From Scolanthus callimorphus (taxonomy: Eukaryota > Cnidaria > Anthozoa > Actiniaria > Edwardsiidae), in contig CM066923.1 of assembly GCA_033964015.1 (NCBI GenBank), positions 868,001-932,000 on the forward strand: a DNA stretch of 64,000 nucleotides. Reading direction: 5' to 3'. Positions 3,704 to 64,000 of the stretch are shown piece by piece. A program made the translations under genes and the position numbers. A model generated the notes under the pieces. The model made no database searches. It was not told the DNA's origin and saw only the letters and a list, made by a program, of their open reading frames with translations. The number at the start of each line of letters is the position of its first letter. Position 1 is the first letter of the stretch.

Positions 3704-5319
3704 ATGATTTCACTGCTTTCTGTTAAACAACGGCTCAGCCGATGGATGGAAGACAACAGAGGAATAATCATAACTTTTTTCTGTTTGCCTGCAAGTTTCC
3801 TTTTTGACCTTGGTATGAAGATAAGAATTTGGTTCTACAGAGAAATTTTGTCTGCTCCCAAGCGTCACAATGTGAGAGTGCAAAAAATCCAATACCAAGT
3901 TGCAAAATGGAATAAACAGCCAAAAGATCAACAAAAACTGATGTGTACATCCCGTCCAAATTGGCTAAGTTTATCAACAACGTTTTTTGAGAAAGAAAGA
4001 TGCAATCAAGTTCCAATTCCACTATATGATATTCTTGAACTCAACGAGGATGCAATGACTGTTCGAGTTGAACCAATGGTTTCAGTAGGAGAAATAACTA
4101 GATACCTGATACCCAGAGGGTATACACTAGCAGTAACCTTAGAAATCGCTGATGCTACTTGTGGGGGATTAGCATTCGGTGTTGGCATGACGACATACTC
4201 CCATAAAGTGGGTCTCTATCAGGAGACAATTGAAGCATATGATGTCGTCCTCGGAGATGGTTCCTTGGCTCACGTGACAAAGGATAATCAGTATTCAGAT
4301 TTGTATTATTGTCTGCCCTGGTCGCATGGTACCCTGGGATTCTTAGTTGCTCTTGAACTGAAAATTGTCAAGGTGAAGCCTTATGTGCACATGAAATATA
4401 TCCCTGTCAAAGGTCAAAAGAAGTATTGTGATTTAGTTCGTGAACTTTCTGGCACATATGACAAGGACAAGCCAACTCCTGACTACCTAGAAGCAACAGT
4501 TTATAACAAAGATGAGGCCATAGTCATGGTAGGGAACTTTGCAGATGTCACAACCGATGAGCAAAGATCCAAAATTAATCATGTGACAAAATGGTACAAG
4601 CCTTGGTTTTACAAACACGTGGAAACCTTCCTTGAGAGGGGTGAAAGCGAAGAATACATTCCTCTTAGAGAGTATTTATTACGTCACAACAAGTCCATCT
4701 TCTGGGTCATTGAGTCTATGATTCCATTTGGAAATAAACCATGGTTTTTGTTCTTTTTTGGTTGGTTATTACCACCTAAACCTGCCTTCTTAAAATTCAC
4801 CACCACCCCAGCTATTCGAGCTATGACTTTCACTAAACAAGTCTTCCAAGATATCGTCCTGCCAATCAACAAGCTTGAAGAACAGATCAATGTCAGTGAG
4901 AAGTTGTTTAACACATATCCACTACTTATCTACCCCTGTCGTATCTACAATCATGGTAAACATACCAGCCAGCTACGCCCACCACGCCCTGATCAGATGT
5001 GCCCAGGGGCTGACTGGGGATGTTCAATGATCTAGGTATTTATGGCGTACCTGATTTAGTTAAACAAAAACAAAGATATGATGCTGTTGGCACCATGCGG
5101 GAGATGGAAAAATTTACAAGAGAGGTTGGGGGATATGCGTTCTTGTATGCTGATGTGTTCATGAGCCGAGAAGAATTTGAAGAAATGTTTGATCTTACTG
5201 CGTATGAAAAAGTCAGAAGCAAGTATCACGCTGTTGGAGCTTTTCCCCATCTTTACGACAAGATCAAGCCAGAGATTGATGTATTTGAAGTAGGAAAGCA
5301 ATACATGGACCCACTTTAA
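3704..5319 (+). CDS. DHCR24: Delta(24)-sterol reductase-like protein (DHCR24/DIMINUTO family), one frameshift
   Basis: The protein is an FAD-dependent oxidoreductase of the DHCR24/DWARF1 family, which reduces the 24(25) double bond of sterols at the ER membrane using NADPH. The start at 3704 sits just after a splice acceptor (3697) and leads into a hydrophobic N-terminal anchor (about residues 12-45). The FAD-binding PCMH region follows, with VRVEPMVSVGEIT, GGLAFGVGMTTYSHK-like and WSHGTLGFLVALEL-like blocks, then YKPWFYKHVE, EYIPLREYLLRH, SIFWVIESMIPFG and the C-terminal GIYGVP, MEKF and YADVFMSREEFEEMFD. The reading frame breaks at about 5012-5014, where ADWG should run into MFNDLG; one extra G in TGGGG would restore it (about 538 aa; the family is about 515-560). 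The coding part has no introns. It is intermediate between animal and plant-type members. The family call is firm; whether the gene is functional is not settled. Confidence 0.85.
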
Positions 5320-25195: not shown

Positions 25196-25460
25196 TTTAA
25201 TAACACGACCGAAGCCCGCCCGCCCAGAACGCTATCAACTAGACCGATAACGAGTTACTGGTACAAAGAAATGTCAAGGTCTATGTACTTAAACCACCTT
25301 TAATTCATTATTTATTTACAAATATTTATTAATCTATGAAGGTTTCTACCTATCTACGATGCGTATGAGAATTTTATGTTAACGAGTGACACGCAACTCG
25401 AAAACATCAACTAATAATATTTTCAGGGTTGAACAAAAGACTCAGCTATACTATACCCTG

Positions 25461-27305
25461 AGTACCAGAGTATCCTGGAGTCCATAGCTATTGTAATGAC
25501 GATTCCAGCTATAACGCACGCGCGCGCTGCATGTCGGTAGAGTACCAGAGTATCCTGGAGTCCATAGCTATGGCAATGGACGATTCCAGCTATAACGCCG
25601 CGCCCGCTGCATGTCGGTAGAGTACCAGAGTATCCTGGAGTTCATAGCTATGGCAATGAACGATTCCAGCTATAACGCCGCGCACGCTGCATGTCGGTAG
25701 AGTACCAGAGTATCCTGGAGTCCATAGCTATGGCAATGGACGATTCCAGCTATAACGCACGCGCGCGCTGCATGTCGGTAGAGTACCAGAGTATCCTGGA
25801 GTCCATAGCTATGGCAATGGACGATTCCAGCTATAACGCACGCGCGCGCTGCATGTCGGTAGAGTACCAGAGTATCCTGGAGTCCATAGCTATGGCAATG
25901 GACGATTCCAGCTATAACGCACGCGCGCGCTGCATGTCGGTAGAGTACCAGAGTATCCTGGAGTTCATAGCTATGGCAATGGACGATTCCAGCTATAACG
26001 CACGCGCGCGCTGCATGTCGGTAGAGTACCAGAGTATCCTGGAGTCCATAGCTATGGCAATGGACGATTCCAGCTATAACGCCGCGCGCGCTGCATGTCG
26101 GTAGAGTACCAGAGTATCCTGGAGTCCATAGCTATGGCAATGGACGATTCCAGCTATAACGCCGCGCGCGCTGCATGTCGGTAGAGTACCAGAGTATCCT
26201 GGAGTCCATAGCTATGGCAATGGACGATTCCAGCTATAACGCACGCGCGCGCTGCATGTCGGTAGAGTACCAGAGTATCCTGGAGTCCATAGCTATGGCA
26301 ATGGACGATTCCAGCTATAACGCACGCGCGCGCTGCATGTCGGTAGAGTACCAGAGTATCCTGGAGTTCATAGCTATGGCAATGGACGATTCCAGCTATA
26401 ACGCACGCGCGCGCTGCATGTCGGTAGAGTACCAGAGTATCCTGGAGCCCATAGCTATGGCAATGGACGATTCCAGCTATAACGCCGCGCGCGCTGCATG
26501 TCGGTAGAGTACCAGAGTATCCTGGAGTCCATAGCTATGGCAATGGACGATTCCAGCTATAACGCACGCGCGCGCTGCATGTCGGTAGAGTACCAGAGTA
26601 TCCTGGAGTCCATAGCTATGGCAATGGACGATTCCAGCTATAACGCACGCGCGCGCTGCATGTCGGTAGAGTACCAGAGTATCCTGGAGTCCATAGCTAT
26701 GGCAATGGACGATTCCAGCTATAACGCACGCGCGCGCTGCATGTCGGTAGAGTACCAGAGTATCCTGGAGTCCATAGCTATGGCAATGGACGATTCCAGC
26801 TATAACGCACGCGCGCGCTGCATGTCGGTAGAGTACCAGAGTATCCTGGAGTCCATAGCTATGGCAATGGACGATTCCAGCTATAACGCCGCGCGCGCTG
26901 CATGTCGGTAGAGTACCAGAGTATCCTGGAGTCCATAGCTATGGCAATGGACGATTCCAGCTATAACGCACGCGCGCGCTGCATGTCGGTAGAGTACCAG
27001 AGTATCCTGGAGTCCATAGCTATGGTAATGAACGATTCCAGCTATAACGCCGCGCGCGCTGCATGTCGGTAGAGTACCAGAGTATCCTGGAGTCCATAGC
27101 TATGGTAATGAACGATTCCAGCTATAACGCCGCGCGCGCTGCATGTCGGTAGAGTACCAGAGTATCCTGGAGTCCATAGCTATGGACGATTCCAGCTATA
27201 ACGCACGCGCGCGCTGCATGTCGGTAGAGTACCAGAGTATCCTGGAGTCCATAGCTATGGCAATGGACGATTCCAGCTATAACGCCGCGCGCGCTGCAGT
27301 CGATA
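25461..27305. repeat. 81-bp minisatellite, about 23 copies
   Basis: The unit begins AGTACCAGAGTATCCTGGAG and ends with an alternating CG stretch (CACGCGCGCGC) and TGCATGTCGGTAG. Most units are 81 bp, keeping an open frame of 27 residues (MSVEYQSILESIAMAMDDSS, then YNARARC); units with GCCGCGCGCGC are 80 bp and break that frame, ending each ORF. Copies are almost identical, with few variants (GAGTTC, GAGCCC, TGGTAATGAA), so the array is young or homogenised. The alternating CG blocks could form Z-DNA. There is no upstream gene context, so it is treated as non-coding. Confidence 0.9.
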
Positions 27306-27425
27306 GATGTGGGAAATTTGTCGAACGAACTGTTAAAAAAGCGCGCGCTGCATTCTGGCATTCTGAATAAAGAAGAGAGCGCGCGCTTATAGGTGGAATC
27401 GTCCATTGTGTTTCTCGTATTTCTT

Positions 27426-41773: not shown

Positions 41774-44700
41774 ATGGATTCTAGTAGCGGAAGCGACGAG
41801 GAGGGTCCGTCTTCGCGGCCGGACAACAAATCCCAATGGCAACTAAAGCCAGTTCTGGACGGGATCTTCGCTGAAGTTGATTTGAATATTCCCGTGCTTG
41901 ACTCCGGGAGCGCATCTGAGGTAAAAAGGGATAACGGTTAATGAAATGATGCTTACTTTGTGCCAATAATTTTTTGTGTTTGCGAAATTTAAGAAACTTA
42001 TTTTAGATTGCAACCGTTTGAAATGTTTCTGTTTTGTTTTGATCTTGGTTGTCTTCTTTATTGTTTGTAAGTTATAAATTCCCTGGGTATTCCCTGTGTA
42101 CTGCTTTTTCCCTTGTAAGTAAGAACTACTTTTTTTACGGCAATAACAATGTCGAGGCTGACGTCTTTAAAATATTGCGTTACTTTCCCCTTCTTTTCAA
42201 GTGGGGTTGGCGGTTGCTTGTCACGAACAGTTCAAATGATATGCTCTTATTGTTGTTTGTTTGTCAGTCAGAGTACTCTTCAAACCTTCTTTCCTCTTTT
42301 CAAACCCTCTTTCCTTGTTCTGCATAAATCCTTTAGAATTGTTTTCAGCATGTTTTTATAAACCATTGGCATGCCACAGGAATATGTCTTTTTTCCAGCA
42401 TGCATATATTATATCTGGCCAGTTGCCAGGGGATGGTGTATGTTGACCATCCAAATTAAAAAAGAAATCCATTGTCCCTGTGAGAATTTTTCTATTGTGA
42501 GGAGTCTTATGTTCTCATGGTTTGTTTTCATCTATAGAGTGAGAGTGACAACGAGGACGATCCATTCATATTCAGTAATGGGGGGCTCAAGAGACTCTCA
42601 AGCCTTGTGGTCACTAAAGAGACACATTCTAAGGAAGAGGATTCCTCTACCACATCAGAAACAGAAGAGCTCAGGGGTGTGTCAGTATCGTCAGCAGACA
42701 GTGGGATATCTACTGTTGGTGCAGGTGGAGAAGGCACCTTGTCACCAAGTGTCTTACAGGTTTGTGAAGAATATTTGCATCCATAGCATTGGTTTATAAT
42801 ACTAGGGGTGGCAAATGGTCAATGCGAGAATTCTGAGAATGCGAGAACGCCGCTTTCAAAATCCGAGATCGAGAACTCGATTTGAGATTCGCCATATAAA
42901 CACAACAAACTGGAAAATCCGAGATCCGAGACGACCTGAAAAAAAATCCGAGATCCGAGAACGGCAAATTTCAAAATACGAGAATTCGAGAACGCCTAAA
43001 ATTTCGCGAGAAAACAGTTTTTTTGAAGGACCATTCGCCACCCCTAATACTGTCTGACAGCCATGACTAGGTTTGATTCATGGAAGAGTAGCTGACCCCA
43101 TCTGTGAAACAGGCAGCTGAAAGTGTTCATGGCACTGCAGTATGTTTAGTGAAAGTAAATCATAGGTTTTACCTTTAAAAACAGTTTCACAGTTTGAAAA
43201 GTGCAAAGTGACTAAAAAAACTTGCTGCTTGTGTTCATTATAAGCCATGTTGTTGATTAATGCTTTTAGCCCCTAGTGGTTTAACACTGGTACTCCCCAC
43301 CACTCTGCTAAAGTTATAAAAGCAAAGCTTAAGTTCATATATTCAGGTTTGTTTAAAGTCTATTTCTTTTTCAGACAAGTGTTAAAAAAGAAGACTTGGA
43401 GCATTCAGACTTGGAGGATCCCAAATCTCCTGAGAAGCTTGTGAATCTGCCATCAGATCAGTCTACTCCAACTCAGACTACAACCCAGGTACCTCATCTG
43501 AACTTTTCCCAAATACAAGACATTGACATTGATGGTTTATTGAGAAGACTGAATGAAGTGTGTATCCCTGAGGAAGCTGAAACCGCTATAGCTGAAATGA
43601 ATAACAATGGACTTGAATCAGATGTCAGCAGTAGTAATAGCAGTGAAGACTTGATGGTACAGTTAGCTTCTCTGAGTCAGAAACATTCAGAAGAGGCTGT
43701 GGATGTTCCAACCATCACTAGAGATGTGGTGTCATCCAGGACTACAGGTGGAGTGTCTGTTCAGAATGCTGGAATGATGACAGCACCATATACAGCCTCA
43801 GTTGGTACTAGTACACCCACTAGTGGAGGGAGTAGGATTGAGGATGAGAAAGCCACTACACATCTTGACCTAAGAGCTGACCAAGACAGATCCATTTTTA
43901 AGGTACTTCCCTTTGACTGTCAGATTCTATATAATTTATGAAATTACCAATCAAAAGGTAGAAATGTTTATGGGAACAGTTACATTTACATAGCTAGTCC
44001 ATAACCTACAGGCTATTCCAAAGTGAATAAAAAATGTAAAAGGGGACCAGCGGCGGAACCGAAGCACAGACACTGAGGATGTCACTGCCCCGTGCCAAAT
44101 TATTAAGCCCTAATTACATTCTGTATTATTAGTAGGTGATTTATCTTTGTTAAATTCCAGGGAGTTAGTTTGACAGCAATGGAGAAGTTGTTGGGTAGTG
44201 GAGATGACAGGTAAGAACTTGAATTATAAACCATGACATGCATAACAACAATAACAACAACATTTATATAGCGCCTATATCTAAATAGTTCTATGCGCTT
44301 TACATTGTTGTAATCAAAATAAATATTTACATTAAAAAATGTATTACATATGTACTGCATATGCAGTACAGTGTGTTGACTTAGAAACCATGTTATACAT
44401 ACTTGCTTACATAGCATGTGGTACAGTGTATTGTTGTACAGCAACATGTGGTCCTTGGCAACCTTAACTCTTTTCTCATCACTAGTTCAACTGCTTAAAT
44501 TACTATAAATCAACTAGAAGTCTATAACAAATCCTGTATTTCTATTGGCCAACTACTAATGATCTATTAGTGATAGACGGAGTTTAGGAAATTGGTGATT
44601 TTCCTGTAGTTCTTCCAGTGATTTCTCTTGTTGATTTATACTAAAAGCAATTAGCAAGTCCTAATTTTGTATTGAATAGACTGTATTTACCCGTATATAA

Positions 44701-47700
44701 GACGCACCTGTATATAAGACGCACCTTGAATTTTGAGGTCATTTTGGCAAAAAAATCAATTTCTAAAGATTTTCAATTTGTATTTCGTGCAACAGCACTT
44801 CCATAAAGAAATCGCATGACAAATAGACTGGCAGTAAATGGAAAATGGCAATATAAACATGGGGGCAAATGTTTTACGCCACGAACAGATGAGTAAAATA
44901 TTCCAACTGTATTTTACTCATCGCAATGTCGCTACATTGCTAATTTTGATTTCCAGTAAGTGACTTATTTATTGATGACATTCCAACTGTTTCTTCATTT
45001 TATTTTGTTTGTTTGGGATAAATCTTGTGCTACACAGGATTTCACGCAAAATTTAAATAGTTGTGCTAATATTTCTATGCATTGTAGCCTTCTAGCAGGC
45101 ATTTACAGGCTGATTTTATCGCAAAAATCCCGGAGTTCGTAGTCGCGAGTGCCGAAGAGCGGCATCTTGGATTTTTGGACGTGCGTCCTGGGCCAAGTGA
45201 CAAAATCCAAAATGGCGCTCGCGACTAAGAACTCCGAGATTTTTGCAATAAAAACAGCCTCCAGCGCCTGCTGGCAGGTTTCACGGTACGAAATCCTAGC
45301 TTTATTATGTGCAACCGAACCACACAACCATGAATCAGCAAATTTGTAAAGGATCTTTTGTATTGGTTGTTATGCAAATTCGCAACAGTGATGTTCCGTG
45401 TATAAGATGCACCCCGATTTTGAAGGTTATTTTGGAGTGAAAAAAGTGTGTCTTATATACGGGTAAATATGGTAATGGCCATTCAGCTTTGAGGTCTCTA
45501 ACTGGTAAATGGTAAGCTGCTTTGAATGATTTTATTTGGAAGTACAGAAAAAAGGGAGTATTCTTCTTTACAGCTAAAAGCATTGCATCGCAACCCACGT
45601 TTTAAAAAACATCAAATTATGTTTTGATTTTGTTACTCTGCTGCTCCACCAATCAAACTATATGAGCCATGAAACTTCACCTAGACCCAGTGTAGGCAGC
45701 TGGCTTCCCTCTGATTTAAAACCAGACAACACCGCGATAGAAAGCCAGGCTGCACTAGGCAAAACAGGGCAAGAAGCAAAGCCAAAGCCAAAAACAGCAA
45801 AGCCACAAAGAAATGCAGGTCAAGATGCAACAATGTTAGCTGTAATGCTTGTTCTCTACGCATCATAAATTTGCGCATAAAAATCTGTAATTTCAGTGCC
45901 TCAAGTAGCTCTGAAGATGAAGACTTGGCATCTTGGCATGAGCAGCGCAGGAAATTTAAAGAAGAATCCATGGCTAAAACTAAAACACCTACACAGAAGG
46001 GAAAAAGAGTTATTTCCCCTCTGAGACACCAAAAGCGAGGAGAGAGCGCATCTTTGGAAAAGTCCAAAGAAGATATTAAAAGTAGCCATGACAAAAGAAG
46101 TAGCCCTAATAAGAAAGTACCAAGTGAACATTTAGATGTACAAGAGGAGGAGAGAGCTGAATTGCTTTTAGTAATGAAGGAAAAGACACAATCCCCTGCT
46201 GAACAAGTGAATCCTGGTGAGCAAAAACATCAAAATAAATCAGAGACATTTGAACATCTGAAGGCAGGAAATGAAGCAATAAAGACCAAGATTACAGATA
46301 AGGTGGCTAGGTCAAGTGTTAGTACCGGTACAGAAATGTCTGATTTAAAACCCGTCAAATTAGCATGGGAGGACACTAGTTCCCTTTCTGGGGGTAAACA
46401 CAAAGAGTCAATGTTTGAAGAAAAGGAGAAGATCATTTTGGAGGACGGAAAGCAAGATGTTAAAAGCACTATTGTTCACTATTCAAATCAATCTAAACTA
46501 CATGATAGAGAGCCTCTTGTGAATGGGATCACAGCAAGTGAAGAAGTGTCTGTCAAAAAGAAAACCACTGAAGGTGAGTTTGCAAGATTTCCAATGCATC
46601 AAATTCTTAAGGCAGATGCTTGCAAGATGATATGTAAAAGAGCAGATTTCACATGGGTGTCGTAATGGCAATGATTGTGGCGTAATGGCATTGCATCATG
46701 CTGTGTCTTAGCATTTTGAATGATTGATGAGATTTCACTCGATTTGATTGGATGAACAATCATGAGAAGGCGATCGGTTCCATGTCATGCCATGACCATC
46801 CATCTTCAAACAATTGAAAAGTTGAAAATGACTTCCACTCTGTTTAAGGGAACCTTACTGCTGTTTTCATAATTCTGTGCACTGACTTTATTAATTGGGT
46901 TTGCATAGCGTTCCGTGAATCAAACATCGCCAGGTAGCTTTTGCAAAACCTCAGAGCTGTCAGAGTGGTGTTTGTGGTTGCTAAGTGTTAGTTTGGTTTG
47001 ACTGTTGCTTCAGAGTTCACAGAATTATGAAAACCACAGTAATGTGAGGCATATTTGGAGGTTGAAAAAGAATAAAAGTAACATTGCAAAGCAATATTGT
47101 TCTCTTCCGAGGTTTGGATGTTAACAAATTTTTTTTGTCTTGAAGCAAAAATAATAAAAGAACCCAAGCTAACAAAGACAATGCAGTCGATAGAGAAGAA
47201 GGAGAAGAAATTACGGATGAAGGGTATGCTAGAGAGGGTCAAACAACAAAGGGAAACCAAGTCATCTAGTGGGAAGATGCCTGCTGTTGCACCTGCTACT
47301 CCTGTAGTGTTTGATCTGGTATGTGGGACAATAACATACATTACAGCCGTGATTCAGCAAAGATGCAAAGAATGTTTTTTTTTACATAATGTTAGCATCG
47401 GCCAAAGAAGAAAGCAGGAAACGAAAAATAATAATCAGGGTTTGAAGGTGTGGTTCTGTTGGTGTGCATTCCAACTGTGCCAGTTAATTGAACAAATATT
47501 TAAAAGTTCTCCTTCAAATGCAAAAGGTCACAACAACAACCAGCCGATCTCACCTCAATACAATTGGTCAACGGTAGACTTGACTTCAAGCTCGAATTCC
47601 AATTTGAATCACAACACGAAAACAGCCCGTCACTTCGTAACCCTAGCAGACTCGGAATAACATTTTGTTTTAGAGGCGTTTTAAGTAAGGTAGGGTAAAT

Positions 47701-50700
47701 GTCTCGAATTTGCAAAACATTTCACAATTTTGCCGTACTTATTCATTTTTCAAAGCATTTCCTTTCTTCAGAACACACCAGTTCTTGAAGGATCGAAATT
47801 ATAAACAGTGCTGTACGCTTGGTCAGGGAAGCCATTTCAGTGTTGTACGTGACTGAGAGGACAAAGCTGTGGTCAGGGAAGCCATTTCAGTGTTGCTCTC
47901 GGACAGACTGATTTAGCCAAGAAACGTTTGCGCAGACAACCCGATTATATTAGTAAAGATAGAGTGGGAACTAAAAGGCCTATTGCAACATTTTTTAGAA
48001 TCTGTTTGGAACGCTTGGCGATGCAACAAAAACTCGTTCTGATTGGCTAATTTGAGAGCAAGAAATGAGCTGCAAAGTGATGGCAAGCGAAAAGCCAACA
48101 GTAACTTGCTGCAGTAGAGCACCTTTCTTATCCTAGTGCTCCTGTGTTTGATATTTCCTAGGAGGCGTCATATGAGTCAGCACCGGCCACCTTACCTGAG
48201 CTAGAATCAACCAAGTCCTACCTCCTACTAACGGCAACATTATCCTCATGTGGGAAACTCCAGGTGGGAGGTAGCAAGGGTACCAAGGGTAGTACCCATC
48301 GGAACAGTACAGACAGTGCCAGCTATAATGCCCTACTCGCCTGGCTCTTGTCTCTCATACCCGTGCCTGAGGAATTGGAGGAGGAGTGTGTGGACTACGC
48401 CGCCCAGTATGGTGTTCCGTTCCATGTTATTGGCCTGCAACAAACATGGCACGAAGGACAGCTATCACTGAAGATCGGCATCTGCCGCCGGACAGAGATC
48501 ATTATACGTAACGGGAAACAAGGAAAGGGGAATTCATTTCTCACAGCTGTCAACAAGTATTTACGGACTAACACACTGCTTGATGTTCTCCCTGGAGTGT
48601 TGCAATGTACTAATGCACTCATGGCACTCCCCTGGGGCCAGAGGAACCTGTCCTCCATCCTCTCAGTGAATCCTGACCCTCATTCCATGTCGCGGGTGTT
48701 TGGGGCGGAGCCAGGGTTCTACTGGCAAACCTATGATGTAGAGGACTCATCGTGCGAAGGAAGCCTTACCAACCTAACATTCTGTGGCCCAGAGGTGGAG
48801 AATACAATGGCGCTAATACAGTATACGGCCTTCCACGATCCCACGTGCATGCAGGATGTGCTTAGTCGTGTTTGGCGCGATGGGCTGGATGTAGCAGGTG
48901 TCAGACTGTTGTATGCAAACACAGATGGCATGTGTAAGTTCCTGGGGTCAACCGAGAGCCTTTGCAGCTTATTAGCCAATTAGAGCAGTCGAAAAACAGT
49001 GGATCAGTTTGAAAACAAAATAAAACGGGGCGCAAAGGCTCCCGTTTGATGATTAAGTGGGTTGTGAGAGACAACAGAAAGGGGCTGAAACGGACGATTT
49101 TAGCGAACGTTTCGAGCTTTGATTCCGGCTGTTCTTTAGGGCGGAGAGATGAGATACTGCCGAAGGCCGCAACGTTGCCAAGCTGCGATAAAACCCAAGG
49201 ACGTACACTTTGTGACCATATTTGGAGCCTTTGTCTTGCTTGTCGTGCGCCAAAACAAAGAAAACCGTTTAGATTAGCGCGCGCAAATAAGTCCTTTTCC
49301 AAATATGTTTATACTTTGTACCTTTGTAGCTCGCAGCTTGGTCTTGCGTTACACGTTTGTATTTTTCTGGTTTTATCAGGCACCATTTGCACTGCTGTAA
49401 AAAAGAAGATGAGCTCGAAAGTACATTATTTCTTAATGAAATTGCTAGGATTTCACAGTCCATCTGGATTGAGCTTGAAGACAGTGTAAAGGAGTGAGTG
49501 GACGAAACAACAACAATAGCATTGAGCGCACGATGCCTTTTTTTACTTTATTTTATGTTGTCTTTCAACAGCTCTTGACTCGTCCAGTACCCATGTTTTA
49601 CCCGGTGGAACTGCTCCCCTCCTTGCACTCGCAATTCGTGGTACCTTCGCTGTCATGCGGTGGCTGGACGTAGTTGGACCACTGGATGTCAGCTTGGCAC
49701 GCCGCACTGATCCTATCTCACTCCGTGCACTCTATAGCCAAGACTTGAGAGACGATCGTATGTTCTACTGCCCTCGAAACACTGCCCGCGCTAACGAGGA
49801 GCTTGCCAGATGGTTTGGAGGGCGTGTTCCAGAGAACGACACTGTTAACTTTGGATCGCCAGATGGTGTGCTAGACAGGCCACGGCCGTGCGATACCCGT
49901 GGGCGTGGAGTGGAACAAATCCCTACCAGCTCTTTACACACTCCTCTCGCGCCTCCCCCATGCACGCTAACGGCCTGTTCAGCCTCCTCGGTGGTTCTTA
50001 TCTCCTCGCCTCTGGTACCCACTAACTTCATTGGGGAGATTTTAGAAGTTTGTTATGAAAGAGGGTTTGCTCTGCAAGGGATTCGGCGCATCCGTCTGCA
50101 TCCTAACCGTCTGAAGGATAATAACAGGACGTACTAGGGCTTATCCCAGCTCAGGTGTCAGTGTTCTGCCCGATAAACCCCCTGCTGAGCGACAGAAAGA
50201 TGCGTTGAGCAGGGACTCCTACCAGAACTCGTTACGGAACTCAGCGTGTACCGTGATGTGCTTAAGGCGGGAGAACGGGATGCATCAACTGTACGCCCTC
50301 ATGTCTGTTGTAACAGACCACCTCTTACAATTACAGGCACTACCTCCTGAGGTCTCCTCCAAGAGCCAAGTCATGGTCACCCAACTCTGCTTCACGTCGG
50401 TACCCTTCACTGATCACGTACTCGCTATCTTGGGCCACAAGATGGACCAACTTCCGCATTCGGGCATCTACAGTGCTGCATTCCTCAGCCATTCATTCTA
50501 TTCCAACCCTGAACTCGAGCAAGTCTGCGTAGTAACGTTACTCAAGGAGAAAGTCACGCAAATGGCGCATGAGATATTGCGTTACCTTTTTTACTGCCCA
50601 CCGCCAGGACGTGACCCGGAGGAAGGGTACTGTACCCTAGAGTTGCTAGGCATTAAGCTTATCACTTCTATGTCTCTGCACCAAGCTAAGGAGTTCTCTC

Positions 50701-53700
50701 CTTACGAGATAGGTGACAAGCTCTGGCAAAGCAGCCTTAGACCCTTAACTACCGGCCCTGCCTTGATTTGCGCGCTGAGAGGCGTCAATGCGTTCTCGCG
50801 GCTACGGACATTTATACATAACTACGTCGGCGGCTCCCCCAAGAAACAGCGCCTTGAGAGCAAGGAAGAGGCTTGCCCCGATCTTTTCATGTCCCCTACC
50901 CCAGAGATTGCATACCGACAGCTTACTGCAGTGTTTCACGAGCACGAACTTCATGCTGACTACAACTCGCGATCCAATCTTCATATGGTTCCTCCTCCGC
51001 GGCAGCATGCGCGCACGAGATGTGACTCACCTGATGGTGTCCGAGTGAAGGACAAGCGACCAGGCTGGACCAGAGATGCTGATCGTAAAGACCAGAACGC
51101 AGGGAAGGTAGAGACGCTGTCGCATAATGATGTGCACATAATATCAAGCTTACTGGCAGGACCAAGGCCATTTGTGAGCGTGTGTGTGGTGAAGCCCGAT
51201 GCGGTGCCCAAGTATATTGGGAAAGTTCTCAGGAGGCTTGTGCGGGAGGGATTCACTGTAGTTAACTTGAAGATGAAATGTCTTACTCAAGCTGAGGCCA
51301 AGTTGCTCGTCTCACATGACCCGGATTGCCGTAATAACAAGGTAAGAGAACGAAAAATATGTACCCACAGGGTATAACAGTGCATGACAAATTTTCTAGT
51401 TATTAACGTACTACAAAAGCCTGTACGGTAGTCCCGTATTTTAGGGTAGGAATGTTGGGCGAAAGAAACTTATGTTTTTCCCCACAGCGATCGTAAAATA
51501 AACACATTCAGACATTCTTACTCCCAGACGTCATAGGCACTGAATTTGAATAATTTGAACTAATTAATAATAATCAGTAAATGGCAGGTATGATGAAAAA
51601 GGAAAGGTGTCAAGCGTAGTGAAAAGTTATTGACTACACGGAAGAAAAGGGATTTTTTTTTAGTTATTCGCAGAGAATCACGTGTATGAATAACTTGCAT
51701 GCGGGTCATACGCATGCATGTGGGTCATACACGTGCCGAAAAAAGAAAAAGGGAAAAACAACACTGCTCTGAGGAAAGCAAAAAGCAAAACTCGAAATGG
51801 GTTGCGTTGCGTCGACACGAACTGGCCAAAGTCCACCCCAAAACTCGAAAAGCCAAGCGGGAGGAAAATCTACTCCTCTTGTAAAGACAATCGATGTCAA
51901 GCCAGCGTTGCCATCATCAAGCTCAGAAACAAAAACGGGCTAGTTCGGAGGGCACCATCATCATCATCATCATCATCAAGCTTTATTAAGAAACGGTATC
52001 ACTTCATTGACAATGCTCTTCCAGTGAGCCGCGTATAAAAACTATCTACTATCTACTACCACTAAATACAAGATAACTTATCAAATACTACGATACTACC
52101 TACATCTACCGAATATATTTAAGAAAAACTACAGTTGATAGAAATTGTCTTTGAAAGATTTAAAATTTGGCTGATTTCTTAAATCAGATGGAAGGCTATT
52201 CCACAAAACTGCTCCTCTATAGCTGAATGCTCGTTTACCAGCTTCAGTACGGGGTCTCGGAATAAAGATTTTATTTGAACTTCCTCTCAAATTATGAGAA
52301 TGGACATCGGTTGTTGAATCAAACATTGTTGAAATCCCTTCCGGATAAAGACCGTTCATACACTTGTAAACACTCGCTGCGAGCAGTTTTGACCGACTAT
52401 TTTCAAGAGTTTCCCTCCCGAGGTCCTGTAAAATATTGGCAGACCTGTAAAATATTGGCAGACCTGTAAAATATTGGCAGAAACTAGAACCTCGCACATT
52501 GTCCCAAACGCCAATGACATCCCGTACGCCTTCTTCAACTCAAAATAACAAGAAAGCGTCGGGCACAAGGAGAAAAATCGGCCGTGCGACTGTCGAGCTT
52601 GCTGTTCTGCCGAGCTTGCTGTTCTGCCGTCTCTTCAACCTCAGACACGACGCCGGGCGTACTGTAGTGCTACAGACCTGTTCGACGCTGAGAGGCGATC
52701 AGCAAGAATCGTTCGAAAGAAATTTTAACCGGTGAACTTATCGGAGTGAAGACATTGAATTCTTTTTGACGGGGTGTACTGCAGTGGTGCAATTTTTCCC
52801 CGCTTTGACCGTAAGGTTTGCTTTTAGTAAAGGTTATTAATAAAGGTTATTAACGTATTATACAATTCGTTTATTATCGATAAATTATAATAAACAAAGA
52901 AAACACCCTATTAAATGATATGAGCTTTACAGAAATCTCATCAAAATCACGCCTCAGAATAAGAGCCCGATTTTCTTTTTCAGACTAAAATATGAGACAT
53001 TAAAAGTCAATGATGGAATTTGGTCAATTATCACAGGAAACCCATTCATGGGAAAAGCTGACTTTCTACAGTTTCCCAAGAATGGGAAGTGTTTCTACAT
53101 TCACAAGAATTGGAAGTGTTCGACTTTCCCATGGAAAAACATGTCAATTCAGAACACTTCGAATCCCTCTTTGGGACGCCTATTAGAGCCGTCTATAATC
53201 ACAACATTCTGGTTCAGAAACAATGTTTTAGGTGAAGTAGCGCTGTACCAGGACGGCTTGGAAAAATACCCCAAATAGACCTTAGAGTAGGTTTCAGAGT
53301 ACTCCTCTGCCAATGGCTGATTGCATTTTTAAACTGCACGTGTGTGTGTGGGGGGGGGGGGGATGTGCCAGGGGAAAGAGTGTGTCTGGTGCTTCGAAAC
53401 TCGTAAAATAAATACATGATACACCTTAAGTATGTCATATTTTTATTTACCGGGGTATATTCAGACACACTTACTTCAGACGTCTTACGCACTGGATTTG
53501 AATAATTTGATCTAATTAATAATAATTAGTAAATGGTCGGTAAAGATGAAAGAGAAAACTGGGAAAGGTGTCAAGCGTAGTGAAAGTTATTGACTAATGG
53601 AAGAAAACGGAAAATTTGACTTATTCGCAACCGGAAGTAGCGCGGGCCGCAAAGGGCTCCGGTTTTCGCTCGCCGCGTTTTCTACGCGTTTTGATTGGCT

Positions 53701-56700
53701 GGGCATCGCGACTTTGTTCTCCCAGCCAATCAGATTGCAAAGACAAAACAAATAAATGATTACGTGCGTTTAGTTCTGTAATCGTCGGTGTTTTTCGCCT
53801 CCTGGTTATTTTTTCGTTGAATTAGTTTTGAATCTGATTGGCTAAGTGTATTTACTTTAGTAAATGTTTAGTGTTTAGTTTTCTACACTCATCTGAAATT
53901 CGCACTATTTAAAAAAAAAAGTGCTCTTATGTAAATGTTTTTACATATGAAACGAGACAATTGTAACAATGAGTTTTTTGATAATATTTTAAAGCATCAA
54001 ACATTGTACTTTTCCCGGATTTTAATTTATATAATTTAAATAATTGTAAGCATGTTGTAATACATTTTTATGCGAAACATGTTTTTAACAAACCTTTATT
54101 ATCGTTAATATTATTACTTATTTATGACTTTTCTTAGGAAGCACATGTGTGCCACATGACATCCGGCCCAGTCCTCGCTCTTAGTGTTCAAAGAGAGAAT
54201 GCGGTCGGTAAACTCCTGGAGGTAATAGGACCAAGCAAACCGGATGAGGCACGCTCTAAGTCGCAGTTCTTTTTACGAGGGTCGTACGGCTCAGACCGCA
54301 TCAGAAACGCACTCTACGGTGAGTAAGAGACTCTCGCAAAGAGGTGTCTGCGCGCTCAAGCCAACCATTTCACACTGATTGTGTATTTTGACCCAGATCT
54401 GGGCCAAAGTATTGCCTGGCCAATGGTGCATAAGGACAATATCAGCAGCAGGGTAAAATGTATTAAATATTTCTTATAGAAGTATCACCAGGCCATTGAG
54501 TGCTTCGTTTGAAAGTTACAGACAAAATTCTTGTTTTCCCTTTCGGTACACACGGTACACGCAAGTCCAATCGGAGAGATGGAACACGTTGGGTTGTTGT
54601 GCTAATCAGAAGATCAAGCGAGATTTTTCCTTGTACTGATCGACCTGATTTCGCTGCTGGAGCAACAGGAAGTGTGTGCGATAAAATCAAAATGTACTCC
54701 GTAGAAAAAGGAAAATAATCAAAACCCCCAACAAAGTCGCAAGACCAAAAAGCGGTGCGCTGTGATTTACCAGGTGCATTGTACTGGGCTCGAAATTAAG
54801 AAAGAATCATCGTTATTTATGCCTAGATGAAAAAACGACAAGGAGTAAAATGTTAATTTTTAGTCGTCTTTACGCCCGTATCGGTCGAGCGCTGCCTTAT
54901 TCTCATGAACCTGTTGTTGTATTTCAGCTTCCCCGACATATTCCATGGCCGTACGCGACACTATGCTGTTATTTGGAGAAGGGCTTTGTTGTCCGCAAAC
55001 TATCGACCTCCAGGCAGAGGAAGTGAGTGAAACACGATCAATATTTTTTAATATTTTAAAAGGATCTTTGTTTTTAGTCTGGTAATGATTGCTAGTGACT
55101 ATGCCGATGATAGCAAAGGTAATTAGTATAAATTGAACATCGGCAGTTATTGTATACCTACAATCGCGGGGACAAAATTAGTACACACTTGGCTATCCAG
55201 GCTGTTCCCTGTTCCCCTGTTCAATGTTGTTTGGTGCGCGCAGCGTTCAATTCAAATTGGCATGCTCTAACATTGTAAGGGGGACGGGGTGTTTACGAAA
55301 TTTTTGTCCGCCGCTGTAGACTTTCACTCAACAAAACAAGGCTGCTATTGGTTGATTTGGGGGTCACGTGGCCTATACCCCACAGTTATTTCCCGCTGGG
55401 GTATAATAATGTACTAGACTGCTTGCAGTCCCTTCTTTGGCGAACGTCCCTGAAAACGAGCTCGTGAAAAGCGCGTGACAATGTCGCTCGTGCCTTCGGT
55501 GCCTACAAGCCATCGGCGCTTGCAAAAGAAGAGATTGCAAGCAGAAGGGATTATCTACTGAAAATGTGATGCGAACCCCGTCCTTTGTGTCGGTCACGCA
55601 ACGCTTCCCTTCTTCGTTCGTGGGTATGGCAGCATTGCGTGACCAACACAAAGGACTGCTGTGCAGGAGACTACGTGTGAACGCGACATTACTGTCATTC
55701 TTAACCAGATTCCAAGTCTCATTCTCGACGCCATATTTGAGGTGAAGCCCAAGCGTCTGTCAGTAGACGTGCTTGCATCTGAGGCTATCCCGAGTTGTAA
55801 CAGTGCTACAGATTTTTTCATGGATGTGCTACACCTCCCTGCCTCTCTGCTGGAGGTCAACTGTATTCTGCTACATCCTTCACTCCTCCAGCCCCAAGGA
55901 GCCAACTCGCCAGGTACTCTATAAACCTTTCATTTTCGCTTTTTTGTTGAGTCACAAAGTTCTGGCGCGAGATGAATAACGCGCAACATCGACAAGCTGA
56001 GGGATTTTGGGCCTCGTATTTCCCCGGCTTTACATGTACGCGTTTTCAAATGTGTTCAGGTCGCCACCCAGTGCCAGCTTATGCGGAAGTGATCGACGCC
56101 ATGACGACAGCTGGTTTACAGCCAATTGCAATGAGGATGCTACAGTTGAACGAGACTCAGGCGGCGCAATGCGCTAGATTGTACACGGAGAGCCTAAACC
56201 AGGACATCAAGCCTTATCAACTGGTAAGCCTTTACTCCCTTTATACTAACTGATGTGGTAGAGCCTAAACCCGGACATCAAGCCTTATCAACTGGTAAGC
56301 CTTTACTCCCTTTATACTACCTGATGTGGTAGAGCCTAAACCAGGACATCAAGCCTTATCAATTGGTAAGCCTTTACTCCCTTTATACTAACTGATGTGG
56401 TAGAGCCTAAACCCGGACATCAAGCCTTATCAACTGGTAAGCCTTTACTCCCTTTATACTACCTGATGTGGTAGAGCCTAAACCAGGACATCAAGCCTTA
56501 TCAACTGGTAAGCCTTTACTCCCTTTATACTACCTGATGTGGTAGAGCCTAAACCAGGACATCAAGCCTTATCAACTGGTAAGCCTTTACTCCCTTTATA
56601 CTACCTGATGTGGTAGAGCCTAAACCAGGACATCAAGCCTTATCAACTGGTAAGCCTTTACTCCCTTTATACTACCTGATGTGGTAGAGCCTAAACCAGG

Positions 56701-59700
56701 ACATCAAGCCTTATCAACTGGTAAGCCTTTACTCCCTTTATACTACCTGATGTGGTAGAGCCTAAACCAGGACATCAAGCCTTATCAACTGGTAAGCCTT
56801 TACTCCCTTTATACTAACTGATGTGGTAGAGCCTAAACCCGGACATCAAGCCTTATCAACTGGTAAGCCTTTACTCCCTTTATACTACCTGATGTGGTAG
56901 AGCCTAAACCAGGACATCAAGCCTTATCAACTGGTAAGCCTTTACTCCCTTTATACTACCTGATGTGGTAGAGCCTAAACCAGGACATCAAGCCTTATCA
57001 ACTGGTAAGCCTTTACTCCCTTTATACTACCTGATGTGGTAGAGCCTAAACCAGGACATCAAGCCTTATCAACTGGTAAGCCTTTACTCCCTTTATACTA
57101 CCTGATGTGGTAGAGCCTAAACCCGGACATCAAGCCTTATCAACTGGTAAGCCTTTACTCCCTTTATACTAACTGATGTGGTAGAGCCTAAACCCGGACA
57201 TCAAGCCTTATCAACTGGTAAGCCTTTACTCCCTTTATACTACCTGATGTGGTAGAGCCTAAACCAGGACATCAAGCCTTATCAACTGGTAAGCCTTTAC
57301 TCCCTTTATACTACCTGATGTGGTAGAGCCTAAACCAGGACATCAAGCCTTATCAACTGGTAAGCCTTTACTCCCTTTATACTACCTGATGTGGTAGAGC
57401 CTAAACCAGGACATCAAGCCTTATCAACTGGTAAGCCTTTACTCCCTTTATACTACCTGATGTGGTAGAGCCTAAACCGGACATCAAGCCTTATCAACTG
57501 GTAAGCCTTTACTCCCTTTATACTACCTGATGTGGTAGAGCCTAAACCAGGACATCAAGCCTTATCAACTGGTAAGCCTTTACTCCCTTTATACTACCTG
57601 ATGTGGTAGAGCCTAAACCAGGACATCAAGCCTTATCAACTGGTAAGCCTTTACTCCCTTTATACTACCTGATGTGGTGATGTTCGGCTTGAGCCTAAAC
57701 CAGGACATCAAGCCTTATCAACTGGTAAGCCTTTACTCCCTTTATACTACCTGATGTGGTAGAGCCTAAACCCGGACATCAAGCCTTATCAACTGGTAAG
57801 CCTTTACTCCCTTTATACTACCTGATGTGGTAGAGCCTAAACCAGGACATCAAGCCTTATCAACTGGTAAGCCTTTACTCCCTTTATACTACCTGATGTG
57901 GTAGAGCCTAAACCAGGACATCAAGCCTTATCAACTGGTAAGCCTTTACTCCCTTTATACTACCTGATGTGGTAGAGCCTAAACCCGGACATCAAGCCTT
58001 ATCAACTGGTAAGCCTTTACTCCCTTTATACTACCTGATGTGGTAGAGCCTAAACCAGGACATCAAGCCTTATCAACTGGTAAGCCTTTACTCCCTTTAT
58101 ACTACCTGATGTGGTAGAGCCTAAACCAGGACATCAAGCCTTATCAACTGGTAAGCCTTTACTCCCTTTATACTACCTGATGTGGTGATGTTCGGCTTGA
58201 GCCTAAACCAGGACATCAAGCCTTATCAACTGGTAAGCCTTTACTCCCTTTATACTACCTGATGTGGTGATGTTCAGCTTGGGCCTAAACCAGGACATCA
58301 AGCCTTATCAACTGGTAAGCCTTTACTCCCTTTATACTACCTGATGTGGTAGAGCCTAAACCAGGACATCAAGCCTTATCAACTGGTAAGCCTTTACTCC
58401 CTTTATACTACCTGATGTGGTAGAGCCTAAACCAGGACATCAAGCCTTATCAACTGGTAAGCCTTTACTCCCTTTATACTACCTAATGTGGTAGAGCCTA
58501 AACCAGGACATCAAGCCTTATCAACTGGTAAGCCTTTACTCCCTTTATACTACCTGATGTGGTAGAGCCTAAACCAGGACATCAAGCCTTATCAACTGGT
58601 AAGCCTTTACTCCCTTTATACTACCTGATGTGGTAGAGCCTAAACCAGGACATCAAGCCTTATCAACTGGTAAGCCTTTACTCCCTTTATACTACCTAAT
58701 GTGGTAGAGCCTAAACCAGGACATCAAGCCTTATCAACTGGTAAGCCTTTACTCCCTTTATACTACCTGATGTGGTAGAGCCTAAACCAGGACATCAAGC
58801 CTTATCAACTGGTAAGCCTTTACTCCCTTTATACTACCTGATGTGGTAGAGCCTAAACCCGGACATCAAGCCTTATCAACTGGTAAGCCTTTACTCCCTT
58901 TATACTACCTGATGTGGTAGAGCCTAAACCCGGACATCAAGCCTTATCAACTGGTAAGCCTTTACTCCCTTTATACTACCTGATGTGGTAGAGCCTAAAC
59001 CCGGACATCAAGCCTTATCAACTGGTAAGCCTTTACTCCCTTTATACTACCTGATGTGGTAGAGCCTAAACCCGGACATCAAGCCTTATCAACTGGTAAG
59101 CCTTTACTCCCTTTATACTACCTGATGTGGTAGAGCCTAAACCAGGACATCAAGCCTTATCAACTGGTAAGCCTTTACTCCCTTTATACTACCTGATGTG
59201 GTAGAGCCTAAACCAGGACATCAAGCCTTATCAACTGGTAAGCCTTTACTCCCTTTATACTACCTGATGTGGTAGAGCCTAAACCAGGACATCAAGCCTT
59301 ATCAACTGGTAAGCCTTTACTCCCTTTATACTACCTGATGTGGTAGAGCCTAAACCCGGACATCAAGCCTTATCAACTGGTAAGCCTTTACTCCCTTTAT
59401 ACTACCTGATGTGGTAGAGCCTAAACCAGGACATCAAGCCTTATCAACTGGTAAGCCTTTACTCCCTTTATACTACCTGATGTGGTAGAGCCTAAACCCG
59501 GACATCAAGCCTTATCAACTGGTAAGCCTTTACTCCCTTTATACTACCTGATGTGGTAGAGCCTAAACCCGGACATCAAGCCTTATCAACTGGTAAGCCT
59601 TTACTCCCTTTATACTACCTGATGTGGTAGAGCCTAAACCCGGACATCAAGCCTTATCAACTGGTAAGCCTTTACTCCCTTTATACTACCTGATGTGGTA

Positions 59701-62700
59701 GAGCCTAAACCCGGACATCAAGCCTTATCAACTGGTAAGCCTTTACTCCCTTTATACTACCTGATGTGGTAGAGCCTAAACCCGGACATCAAGCCTTATC
59801 AACTGGTAAGCCTTTACTCCCTTTATACTACCTGATGTGGTAGAGCCTAAACCCGGACATCAAGCCTTATCAACTGGTAAGCCTTTACTCCCTTTATACT
59901 ACCTGATGTGGTAGAGCCTAAACACGGACATCAAGCCTTATCAACTGGTAAGCCTTTACTCCCTTTATACTACCTGATGTGGTAGAGCCTAAACCCGGAC
60001 ATCAAGCCTTATCAACTGGTAAGCCTTTACTCCCTTTATACTACCTGATGTGGTAGAGCCTAAACCCGGACATCAAGCCTTATCAACTGGTAAGCCTTTA
60101 CTCCCTTTATACTACCTGATGTGGTAGAGCCTAAACCCGGACATCAAGCCTTATCAACTGGTAAGCCTTTACTCCCTTTATACTACCTGATGTGGTAGAG
60201 CCTAAACCCGGACATCAAGCCTTATCAACTGGTAAGCCTTTACTCCCTTTATACTACCTGATGTGGTAGAGCCTAAACCCGGACATCAAGCCTTATCAAC
60301 TGGTAAGCCTTTACTCCCTTTATACTACCTGATGTGGTAGAGCCTAAACCCGGACATCAAGCCTTATCAACTGGTAAGCCTTTACTCCCTTTATACTACC
60401 TGATGTGGTAGAGCCTAAACCCGGACATCAAGCCTTATCAACTGGTAAGCCTTTACTCCCTTTATACTACCTGATGTGGTAGAGCCTAAACCCGGACATC
60501 AAGCCTTATCAACTGGTAAGCCTTTACTCCCTTTATACTACCTGATGTGGTAGAGCCTAAACCCGGACATCAAGCCTTATCAACTGGTAAGCCTTTACTC
60601 CCTTTATACTACCTGATGTGGTAGAGCCTAAACCCGGACATCAAGCCTTATCAACTGGTAAGCCTTTACTCCCTTTATACTACCTGATGTGGTAGAGCCT
60701 AAACCCGGACATCAAGCCTTATCAACTGGTAAGCCTTTACTCCCTTTATACTACCTGATGTGGTAGAGCCTAAACCAGGACATCAAGCCTTATCAACTGG
60801 TAAGCCTTTACTCCCTTTATACTACCTGATGTGGTGATGTTCGGCTTGAGCCTAAACCAGGACATCAAGCCTTATCAACTGGTAAGCCTTTACTCCCTTT
60901 ATACTACCTGATGTGGTGATGTTCGGCTTGAGCCTAAACCAGGACATCAAGCCTTATCAACTGGTAAGCCTTTACTCCCTTTATACTACCTGATGTGGTG
61001 ATGTTCGGCTTGAGCCTAAACCCGGACATCAAGCCTTATCAACTGGTAAGTCTTTACTCCCTTTATACTACCTGATGTGGTGATGTTCGGCTTGAGCCTA
61101 AACCCGGACATCAAGCCTTATCAACTGGTAAGTCTTTACTCCCTTTATACTACCTGATGTGGTAGAGCCTAAACCCGGACATCAAGCCTTATCAACTGGT
61201 AAGCCTTTACTCCCTTTATACTACCTGATGTGGTGATGTTCGGCTTGAGCCTAAACCAGGACATCGAGCCTTATCAACTGGTAAGCCTTTACTCCCTTTA
61301 TACTACCTGATGTGGTAGAGCCTAAACCCGGACATCAAGCCTTATCAACTGGTAAGCCTTTACTCCCTTTATACTACCTGATGTGGTGATGTTCGGCTTG
61401 GGCGTAATTTTTTGCCACTCAGATCACATGGCATTCATTTGAATAATCTTTCTTTGTTTTGGATGCTTCCATATTCAAAAGAAAGAATACTCATGGGAAT
61501 GTCATCTGATCTAAAATTATTTTTTCTTCGCGTACAGCAAGCGCAAAACTGTAAGCTTTGACAGTGAAGCGGGTGGTGAATTAGTTAAACGGCCTGCATT
61601 ATACTAGTGCTACAAAAATATTGCTAATACACAACTGACTGAATGTGCTAACACACTGACTGACTAACTATCAAGATTTGCTTACTTTTGGTCCACATAC
61701 GTGCATCTTCAGACTTATTTGAAAGCAGTGACTGTAAGTGCGCGTCCTCGAAATTTCATTTCTTACGAAAATAAATTTGTGAAGAACTTCAATACCAGCA
61801 CGCGTACCGTCCAATACAATGTGGTGGTGCTGAGGAGACTTTGCGCGACTCTTACTCGATTAAATACTGCATAGTATTAATGCATTTTACGCGTTATCAG
61901 GCTTTCCAGCTGCGCCAGGGCCCTTGTGTGGTTATGGCTGTTCTCAAAGATGGAGCTGTGACATCATTTAACACATTAATGGAAAGGTTAGTAATTCGGA
62001 CTTCGGGATGCAGTAGCTCGTTCCGGCCTTTATCCTTTTCTTAGGCCAGTCATCGGACAACACCCTGTACAGTCGCAATTTGTAATAATTATCGCAATTT
62101 GTAATACCTGTCGCAATTTGTAATAAAGTTGTCGCAATTTGTAATACCTGTCGCAATTTGTAATAAAGTTGTCGCAATTTGTAATAAAAAATAAAAATAT
62201 GTAATAAACAGAGCTGTCGCAATTTGTAATACACCTCCGTCGCAATTTGAAATAAGCAACAATCAAATCGCCTAGGTTTGAGCTGCAAAGGAAATAGCAA
62301 AGTCAAATTCAACTGAATAGGGCCGCTGCCATTTAAAAATGATTTTTGTATTGTATTGCTTATTACAAATTGCGACGGAGGTGTATTACAAAGTGCGACA
62401 GCTTTGTTTATTACAAATTGCGACGGAGGTGTATTACAAATTGCGACAGCTTTTTTATTACAAATTGCGACGACTTTATTACAAATTGCGAAAGGTATTA
62501 CAAATTACGACAACTTTATTACAAATTGCGACAGGTATTACAAATTGCGACAGTTATTACAAATTGCGACTGTACACACCCACCTATTCCCGCTACAAGA
62601 ATAGGCGAGAACAGGCGGGGGGGGGGGGGAATGCTGACGAGAAAGGGAGGGGTGGGGGATAGGGGAAGAAAAGGCAAGACTAGGCGAGAATAGAAACTTG

Positions 62701-63479: not shown

Positions 63480-63495
63480 ATGACACAGCTATGTG

Positions 63496-64000
63496 TGATT
63501 CCGATCCGTGATCGTGATGGGATTCCGATCCGTGATCGTGATGTAATTCCGATCCATGATCGTGATGTGATTCCTATCCGTGATCGTGATGTGATTCCAA
63601 TCCGTGATCGTGATGTGATTCCGATCCGTGATCGTGATGTGATTCCGATCCGTGATCGTGATGTGATTCCAATCCGTGATCGTGATGTGATTCCGATCCG
63701 TGATCGTGATGTGATTTCGATCCGTGATCGTGATGTGATTCCGATCCGTGATCGTGATGTGATTCCGATCCGTGATCGTGATGTGATTCCGATCCGTGAT
63801 CGTGATGTGATTCCGATCCGTGATCGTGATGTGATTCCGATCCGTGATCGTGATGTGATTCCGATCCGTGATCGTGATGTGATTCCGATCCGTGATCGTG
63901 ATGTGATTCCGATCCGTGATCGTGATGGGATTCCGATCCGTGATCGTGATGTGATTCCGATCCGTGATCGTGATGGGATTTCGATCCGTGATCGTGATGT
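63496..64000. repeat. 24-bp satellite running off the window end
   Basis: About 21 copies of a 24-bp unit, GTGATTCCGATCCGTGATCG plus TGAT, with single-base variants (GGGATT, CCAATC, CCTATC, CATGATC). The plus frame reads VIPIRDRD repeated without a stop; an ATG at 63480 precedes the first unit in frame, so 173 codons are open to the window end. Coding status is unknown. Confidence 0.9.

Follow-up and report, generated by a model that had tools for sequence, protein, structure and literature searches.

A 72-copy minisatellite across a modelled exon-intron boundary of a DNAAF8 orthologue in the anthozoan Scolanthus callimorphus

Near the end of a predicted gene in the anthozoan cnidarian Scolanthus callimorphus, the last nucleotides of one exon and the first nucleotides of the following intron are repeated in tandem 72 times, such that every standard repeat has the appearance of a small exon joined to a very short intron. 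The repeats lie in a stretch of 64,000 nucleotides (positions 868,001 to 932,000 of contig CM066923.1, assembly GCA_033964015.1; hereafter the window), at the boundary between exon 12 and intron 12 of a gene that we recognise as an orthologue of the dynein axonemal assembly factor gene DNAAF8, whose product serves in the assembly of cilia. Are these repeats spliced into the transcript as micro-exons, a possibility raised by an original prediction made from the DNA letters, or do they leave it together, as part of a single intron? Our reading, held with good confidence, is that of a minisatellite spanning the boundary, like those described from amphioxus as mirages, in which the first donor would be used and the entire array would be spliced out with intron 12.

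Anatomy of the array and its host gene

Tandem Repeats Finder (TRF) resolves the array into 72.0 copies with a period of 71 bp and 97% matches, and a split at fixed anchors yields 72 exon-like starts ([A/G]GCCTAAAC) and 72 GGTAAG donors, which confirms the predicted 72-copy array, at the copy number present in one assembly. Most units (62) measure 71 bp; one is 70 bp and eight are 82 bp long, and a terminal unit completes the 72. The standard unit has the geometry originally proposed for it: 33 nt in phase 0, encoding SLN[Q/P]DIKPYQL, followed by 38 nt that run from GTAAGC to TAG. It thus crosses an exon-intron boundary of its host gene (a boundary that is itself modelled), its exonic share being the last 33 nt of exon 12, or 35 nt at the left edge of the array. 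The eight 82-bp units, which start at 57610, 58118, 58200, 60767, 60849, 60931, 61013 and 61166, end in CTTG, so that AG is absent at that junction.

Units differ little from one another. The exon part reads SLNQDIKPYQL, the common sequence, in 34 units and SLNPDIKPYQL in 33, with single variants in the other five. The description of 72 near-identical donors at the head of one intron holds, but not to the point of strict uniformity: CTGGTAAGC is the donor sequence in 69 of the 72 units, CTGGTAAGT in two and TTGGTAAGC in one. Similarly, a branchpoint-like motif, either TACTAAC or TACTACC, does occur as predicted, but TACTAAC is found in just four units (1, 3, 9 and 14); the other 68 carry TACTACC, with a C at the branch-A position.

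The host gene lies on the plus strand and has 13 visible exons between 41774 and 61986 (Table 1), modelled by hand from open reading frames (ORFs), GT-AG sites and alignment to Nematostella DNAAF8 (P0001), P0002 and P0003, and hence from sequence alone. Its best match is dynein axonemal assembly factor 8 of Nematostella vectensis (P0001; 66% identity, 64% query coverage, E=2e-206). A protein search with the gene model, in which 7986 candidates sharing most words were scored, returned three matches (P0001, P0002 and a Mobula DNAAF8), and a second search with the C-terminal part as query returned one, the Latimeria protein P0004. Two pieces of exon 8 match the Pfam family NDK above its cut-off of 27 bits (28.9 and 36.6 bits), and the join of exons 12 and 13 scores just below it (26.2 bits, E=8.2e-6). 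Against PDB, the Nematostella counterpart gives non-significant matches to NDK homologues 5 and 7 (best E 0.06), in one of which the repeated segment aligns within the NDK homologue 5 chain. By this collinear homology to a named DNAAF8 with NDK-like domains, the predicted gene is a DNAAF8 orthologue.

Two details of the gene model deserve mention. A possible additional exon at 45691-45818 was left out of the model, its phase being incompatible with the next exon. Within exon 8 the frame changes at about 50100-50150 (break near 50112-50150), and homology resumes in another frame (RLHPNRLKDNNRTY and a stop, against GRTRAYPSSGVSVLPDK); the change would stem from an error in the assembly, from a genuine frameshift or from a tiny intron that escaped recognition.

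Across the junction that the array now separates, exon 12 is collinear with Nematostella DNAAF8, which reads ...YSESLNADVKPYQL and continues with AYQLQQGP. The 11-residue segment that corresponds to the exon part of the unit is present once in Nematostella DNAAF8 (SLNADVKPYQL) and once in P0002 (CLPADWKRHHL), and in both it runs straight on into the exon-13 part. The shark protein P0003 and P0004 of the coelacanth Latimeria are gapped or diverged at the segment and show no repeat. A metagenome protein of 132 aa, P0005, is collinear as far as DIKPHQM, then diverges and ends in ...DIKPHQMVREHRS; its few residues past the exon end contain no repeat, and its tail looks like the product of a gene caller reading from the same exon end into an intron. 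Since the segment is single in these relatives, one copy is most likely the ancestral state of the protein, and unit 1 most likely holds the ancestral donor. No protein with two copies of the segment emerged from a dedicated search (E up to 10, 3571 candidates, protein lengths 0.55-1.75 x 206 aa), which gave P0005 as its one match.

Table 1. Positions within the window of the array, of its parts and of the exons of the host gene
Feature	Position	Strand	Basis
Minisatellite across the exon 12/intron 12 boundary, 72 units	56189-61387	+	TRF, anchor split, recount
Putative mini-intron of unit 1, the opening 38 nt of intron 12 (GTAAGC...TACTAAC...TAG)	56224-56261	+	
Unit 19 (70 bp), exon part shortened by a 1-nt deletion, frameshift if included	57469-57538	+	
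3' part of the array with five of the eight 82-bp units (junction CTTG/AGCC, no AG)	60767-61247	+	
Terminal unit, ending in GATGTTCGGCTTG, then unique intron GGCGTAATTT...	61319-61400	+	
Predicted intron 12, 5677 nt, holding the array minus 35 exonic nt at its left	56224-61900	+	
Exons 1-4	41774-41920, 42538-42759, 43375-43902, 44161-44210	+	Hand model
Exons 5-8	45897-46573, 47146-47318, 48162-48933, 49572-51341	+	Hand model
Exons 9-11	54138-54318, 54928-55022, 55709-55913	+	Hand model
Exon 12, belonging to an NDK-like domain; its final 33 nt form the exon part of unit 1	56060-56223	+	AG/.../GTAAGC, phase
Exon 13 (AFQLRQGPCVVMAVLKDGAVTSFNTLME...)	61901-61986	+	

Origin and turnover of the units

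The edges of the array, CACGGAGAGCCTAAAC in the exon at its left and GATGTGGTGATGTTCGGCTTGGGCG in the intron at its right, show how its units are joined: the 71-bp unit is a direct head-to-tail join of AGAGCC...GTGGT and the 82-bp unit one of AGCC...GGCTTG, and both are clean tandem-duplication joins. The array would thus have begun with a tandem duplication of 35 nt of exon end together with 36 nt of intron start, in which the join GTGGT/AGAGCC would have put an exonic AG behind the intronic piece and so created the look of a micro-exon followed by a GT-AG mini-intron. What resembles an acceptor in the 71-bp unit is therefore an AG of the exon, contributed by the codons GAG AGC and moved behind intron sequence, and not an evolved splice site, and that the 33-nt exon part is divisible by three amounts to a one-in-three chance. 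A second clean join, GGCTTG/AGCC, would have given rise to the 82-bp units, after which unequal exchange or slippage may have amplified and homogenised the units. A route from the 82-bp to the 71-bp unit by a single deletion fails because the 71-bp join has one more AG, of exonic origin; independent joins, each from a clean duplication, are the better fit. A viral origin was also considered and rejected, the 27-base core of the unit having no exact match in viral_contigs, a collection from which own-genome records are possibly excluded.

The order of the units points to turnover of the array. Neighbouring units are identical in 32 pairs, a number that none of 5000 shuffles reached, with a longest run of 11, and the 15 distinct unit sequences are arranged in a Q-rich 5' part, a P-rich run and the 82-bp units towards the 3' edge. 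Such clustering is ordinary minisatellite turnover, as expected under unequal exchange or slippage. Like mirages, the array thereby has a unit of minisatellite size, evolves in concert and diverges at its edges, five of its eight 82-bp units being near the 3' edge. Substitutions occupy five of the 33 positions of the exon part, four of them nonsynonymous and one silent (one of these columns also carries a deletion), and three columns are variable among the first 36 positions of the intron part: the exon part is no less variable than the intron part, and nothing in these small numbers suggests selection on a protein repeat.

Tandem repeats are abundant around the gene. The window contains 22 merged tandem arrays (TRF, score of at least 50) that make up 16% of its length. 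When both ends of the 13 exons were compared, an exact copy of 35 nt was found for the 3' end of exon 12 in the 400 nt that follow it, and at the other 25 of the 26 exon ends such copies reached at most 10 nt. Among 20,000 random sites of the window, an exact copy of at least 33 nt within the next 400 nt was found at 11%, and one of at least 14 nt at 16%; for a 71-bp duplication placed at random in this gene, the chance of crossing an exon boundary, with at least 10 bp on each side, is about 8%. In a window this rich in repeats, an array across one exon boundary is therefore unsurprising.

Splice signals, reading frame and competing readings

Donor and acceptor of the unit differ markedly in how they score. 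Measured with a matrix built from the other 12 donors of the gene, CTGGTAAGC is at the 98.8th percentile of the 3242 GTs outside the array. The unit acceptor, TAG/AG, reaches between -6.8 and -8.1 bits under the lighter pseudocount and falls at the 24th to 36th percentile of window AGs under two pseudocounts (25th to 35th percentile of the 3471 AGs outside the array); of the 12 modelled acceptors, scored by leaving each out in turn, 11 are at the 84th to 99.5th percentile, and that of exon 5 is at the 37th to 50th. When donor, branch point and acceptor are all considered, the donor alone fits in the units under this sequence model.

Frame tests were run through exons 11-13. With everything upstream retained, a direct join to exon 13 is open for donor 1 alone, and the other 71 of the 72 donors lead to one common stop codon. 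As predicted, standard units preserve the frame: 62 of the 71 extra units can be added singly in frame, as micro-exons would be, and all 62 together add 682 aa with no stop. The other nine cannot be added in frame, namely units 22, 29, 30, 66-69 and 71, which each follow an 82-bp unit and therefore begin without an AG, and the frameshifted unit 19. Failure to splice a unit does end in a stop, although the peptide is not quite the predicted VSLYSLYT: read-through of unit 1 or 2 gives VSLYSLYTN or VSLYSLYTT, then TGA. Inside the array there is no plus-strand frame of at least 45 aa (the frame at 55951-56250 goes from exon 12 into unit 1) and no minus-strand frame of at least 70 aa.

We propose that in the normal transcript the donor at 56223 is joined to 61901, which would yield a protein with one SLNQDIKPYQL, and that the 71 donors that follow are for the most part silent, decoys whose occasional use would lead to a stop codon and probably to nonsense-mediated decay. 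This direct junction, which the original prediction had named as the result that would speak against it, appears to be the likeliest outcome, and the array itself is most likely neutral.

Several observations weigh against this reading, and they are in part the ones that would favour the use of some units as symmetric 33-nt micro-exons, spliced through introns of 38 or 38+71k nt into variable 11-residue repeats within the last NDK-like domain. The acceptor matrix consists of 12 hand-modelled acceptors, among which that of exon 5 scores about as weakly as the units do. At 2.4-4.8 bits (88th-93rd percentile), the best AG of the array, TTGAG/CC in the 82-bp units, is within the range of the modelled acceptors; used as an acceptor, it would produce a 31-nt exon that is out of frame. 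So few variable columns give little power to detect selection, and the three protein searches gave three, one and one matches, none of them near-identical to the window. Human introns of 43, 49 and 56 nt, moreover, are reported to be spliced despite poor signals, and in a screen of 22 human introns of 37-65 nt, 15 were supported, several of them with inefficient splice or branch sites (PMC4463651). Weak signals are thus no proof that the units go unspliced. Because introns of 38+71k nt, from the donor of unit i to the acceptor of a later unit, could be accessible to the cell, shortness alone does not exclude inclusion of a unit, and the reservation that 38 nt is short for an animal intron is decisive neither way. 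In addition to these short introns, micro-exon use has in its favour the phase 0-0 of the 33 nt, the number of units that fit the frame, the good donor and the precedent of human IFI6, which employs two downstream minisatellite units as donors (PMC4526556). Against this, the acceptor is weak, the branch A is absent from 68 of the 72 units, the coding part lacks conservation, the dedicated search found no two-copy protein (one match, 3571 candidates), and the insertion would fall within an NDK-like stretch, albeit one defined by a Pfam score just below cut-off and by non-significant PDB matches. Micro-exon use by some units seems to us quite unlikely. The original suggestion that the units act as micro-exons with mini-introns consequently fares poorly on branch point, acceptor and protein-level conservation, small as the numbers behind the last are: the arithmetic of the micro-exon picture is correct, and its biology is weak. 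Very improbable, too, is a cassette of 62 micro-exons in which low-level splicing from any donor to any later acceptor would generate a set of DNAAF8 proteins carrying anything from 0 to 62 additional 11-residue repeats, varying with allele or cell; if true, it would represent a self-expanding exon array caught in the course of forming.

The array might also act in cis with no unit included, its 71 decoy U1 sites competing with the true donor or retaining U1, and thereby lowering or buffering DNAAF8 according to copy number. There are indeed 72 near-identical donors in 5.2 kb, and each decoy used alone leads to a stop, so such use would cut productive mRNA. However, exon definition favours the donor closest to the acceptor of the exon, and the true donor is the one nearest the acceptor of exon 12. 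The amphioxus mirages, for their part, are reported to leave normal splicing undisturbed (PMC3087553, PMC3902484), and we regard an effect in cis as quite unlikely. It is highly doubtful that the copy number is largely an effect of assembly, by which a real but much shorter array would have been expanded: near-identical units of 71 bp are hard to assemble, the identical runs (up to 11) are the likely places for such expansion, and a globin mirage in the amphioxus draft was apparently assembled aberrantly (PMC3087553), but the array comprises 15 distinct unit sequences in the structured order described above. Two further ideas were rejected. Recursive splicing finds no zero-length ratchet site (AG directly before GT), the AG and donor of a unit being 33 nt apart, and the fold of three units is too ordinary to suggest an RNA structure that would hide the donors: it reaches -47.4 kcal/mol (z -0.98), which 35 of 200 shuffles equalled or bettered.

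Boundary arrays in the window and in other genomes

In amphioxus, mirages are described as minisatellite-like tandem duplications of exon-intron boundaries, at the loci Adh3, the globins BflGb6 and BflGb9, TnC and, in imperfect form, PGBD5 (PMC3087553, PMC3902484). The units of the Adh3 mirage measure 10-72 bp, the length of mirage clusters is unstable, and the duplication may involve the 5' boundary or the 3' one (PMC3087553); the BflGb6 mirage has six and three units in its two haplotypes (PMC3087553, PMC3902484). The Adh3 data and the globin study's own reverse transcription PCR are presented as suggesting no interference with regular splicing, though many units carry AG/GT signals (PMC3087553), and for Adh and TnC it is stated that no aberrant mRNAs are generated (PMC3902484). 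As in these accounts, the DNAAF8 array consists of boundary copies inside a host gene, with repeated splice signals and concerted evolution. It differs in occurring in an anthozoan cnidarian, not a cephalochordate, and in having about 72 copies as opposed to the six and three of BflGb6, and, unlike the amphioxus mirages as described, its unit combines a donor with an in-frame acceptor-like AG and so mimics a micro-exon with a mini-intron. On both anatomy and turnover, the DNAAF8 array probably belongs to the mirage kind, of which it would be a large case and one probably from another phylum.

The unit of the human IFI6 (6-16) minisatellite is 12 bp long, and Turri et al. reportedly described this minisatellite in 1995 as providing multiple splice donor sites. 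Of its several donors, two downstream units are used, with three mRNA species reported (PMC4526556). Like the DNAAF8 array, that of IFI6 is placed at an exon end and repeats the splice donor; its downstream donors, however, are reported to be used, whereas each downstream donor of the DNAAF8 array leads, by itself, to a stop codon. In the potato RdRp gene, a tandem duplication over an intron-exon boundary is reported to have made a new intron (PMC4974935), which parallels the DNAAF8 array in that duplication of a boundary can bring ready-made splice signals. The new potato intron was detected, whereas splicing of the DNAAF8 units, as read from the letters of the DNA, is not favoured. Our searches of a library of open-licence full-text papers yielded no report of a boundary array of this kind in a cnidarian.

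The window may hold a second, weaker boundary-linked minisatellite, in a minus-strand gene that we call SMC4-like from PDB sequence matches. If the end of the exon is taken as 14583, a 22-bp array (14367-14580) begins at intron position +3, and directly behind it, GATCAAGCTGTACA (14353-14366) is a 14-nt copy of the exon end that comes without the donor. The case is suggestive only, because 14-nt copies near arrays are not rare here (16% of random sites). A 59-bp-type array at 6748-8084 (for which TRF also gives 118 bp x 11.5) lies about 100 bp upstream of the start of an SMC4 C-terminal exon on the minus strand.

The window also holds other repeats. An 81-bp array of 23 copies at 25460-27307 has long open stretches in one plus and one minus frame, and its units include a CG-rich, length-variable tract (GCACGCGCGCGC/GCCGCGCGC); the sole piece tested, 25676-26101, had no Pfam match above cut-off. 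Just past exon 13, at 62072-62570, two 19-bp-type arrays carry one motif in opposite orientations (GTCGCAATTTGTAATAA and its reverse complement). The 24-bp array at 63494-64000, which is cut by the window edge, is open in several frames (IPIRDRDV) and has a Pfam match only far below cut-off. The plus-strand ORFs at 3587-5316, the first of them with the FAD-binding domain PF01565, belong to what we take to be a DHCR24-like gene; against PDB they gave weak matches only, to other FAD oxidases.

The array at DNAAF8 thus probably extends a phenomenon found in the literature for amphioxus and human IFI6 to an anthozoan, and does so at about 72 copies. It offers a natural test of how a spliceosome chooses one correct donor among 72 that are near-identical, and the second, weaker SMC4-like case is a hint that boundary arrays could be frequent in this genome. 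A unit in which GT and AG stand in frame would, finally, be a possible starting state for the gain of introns or exons by tandem duplication.

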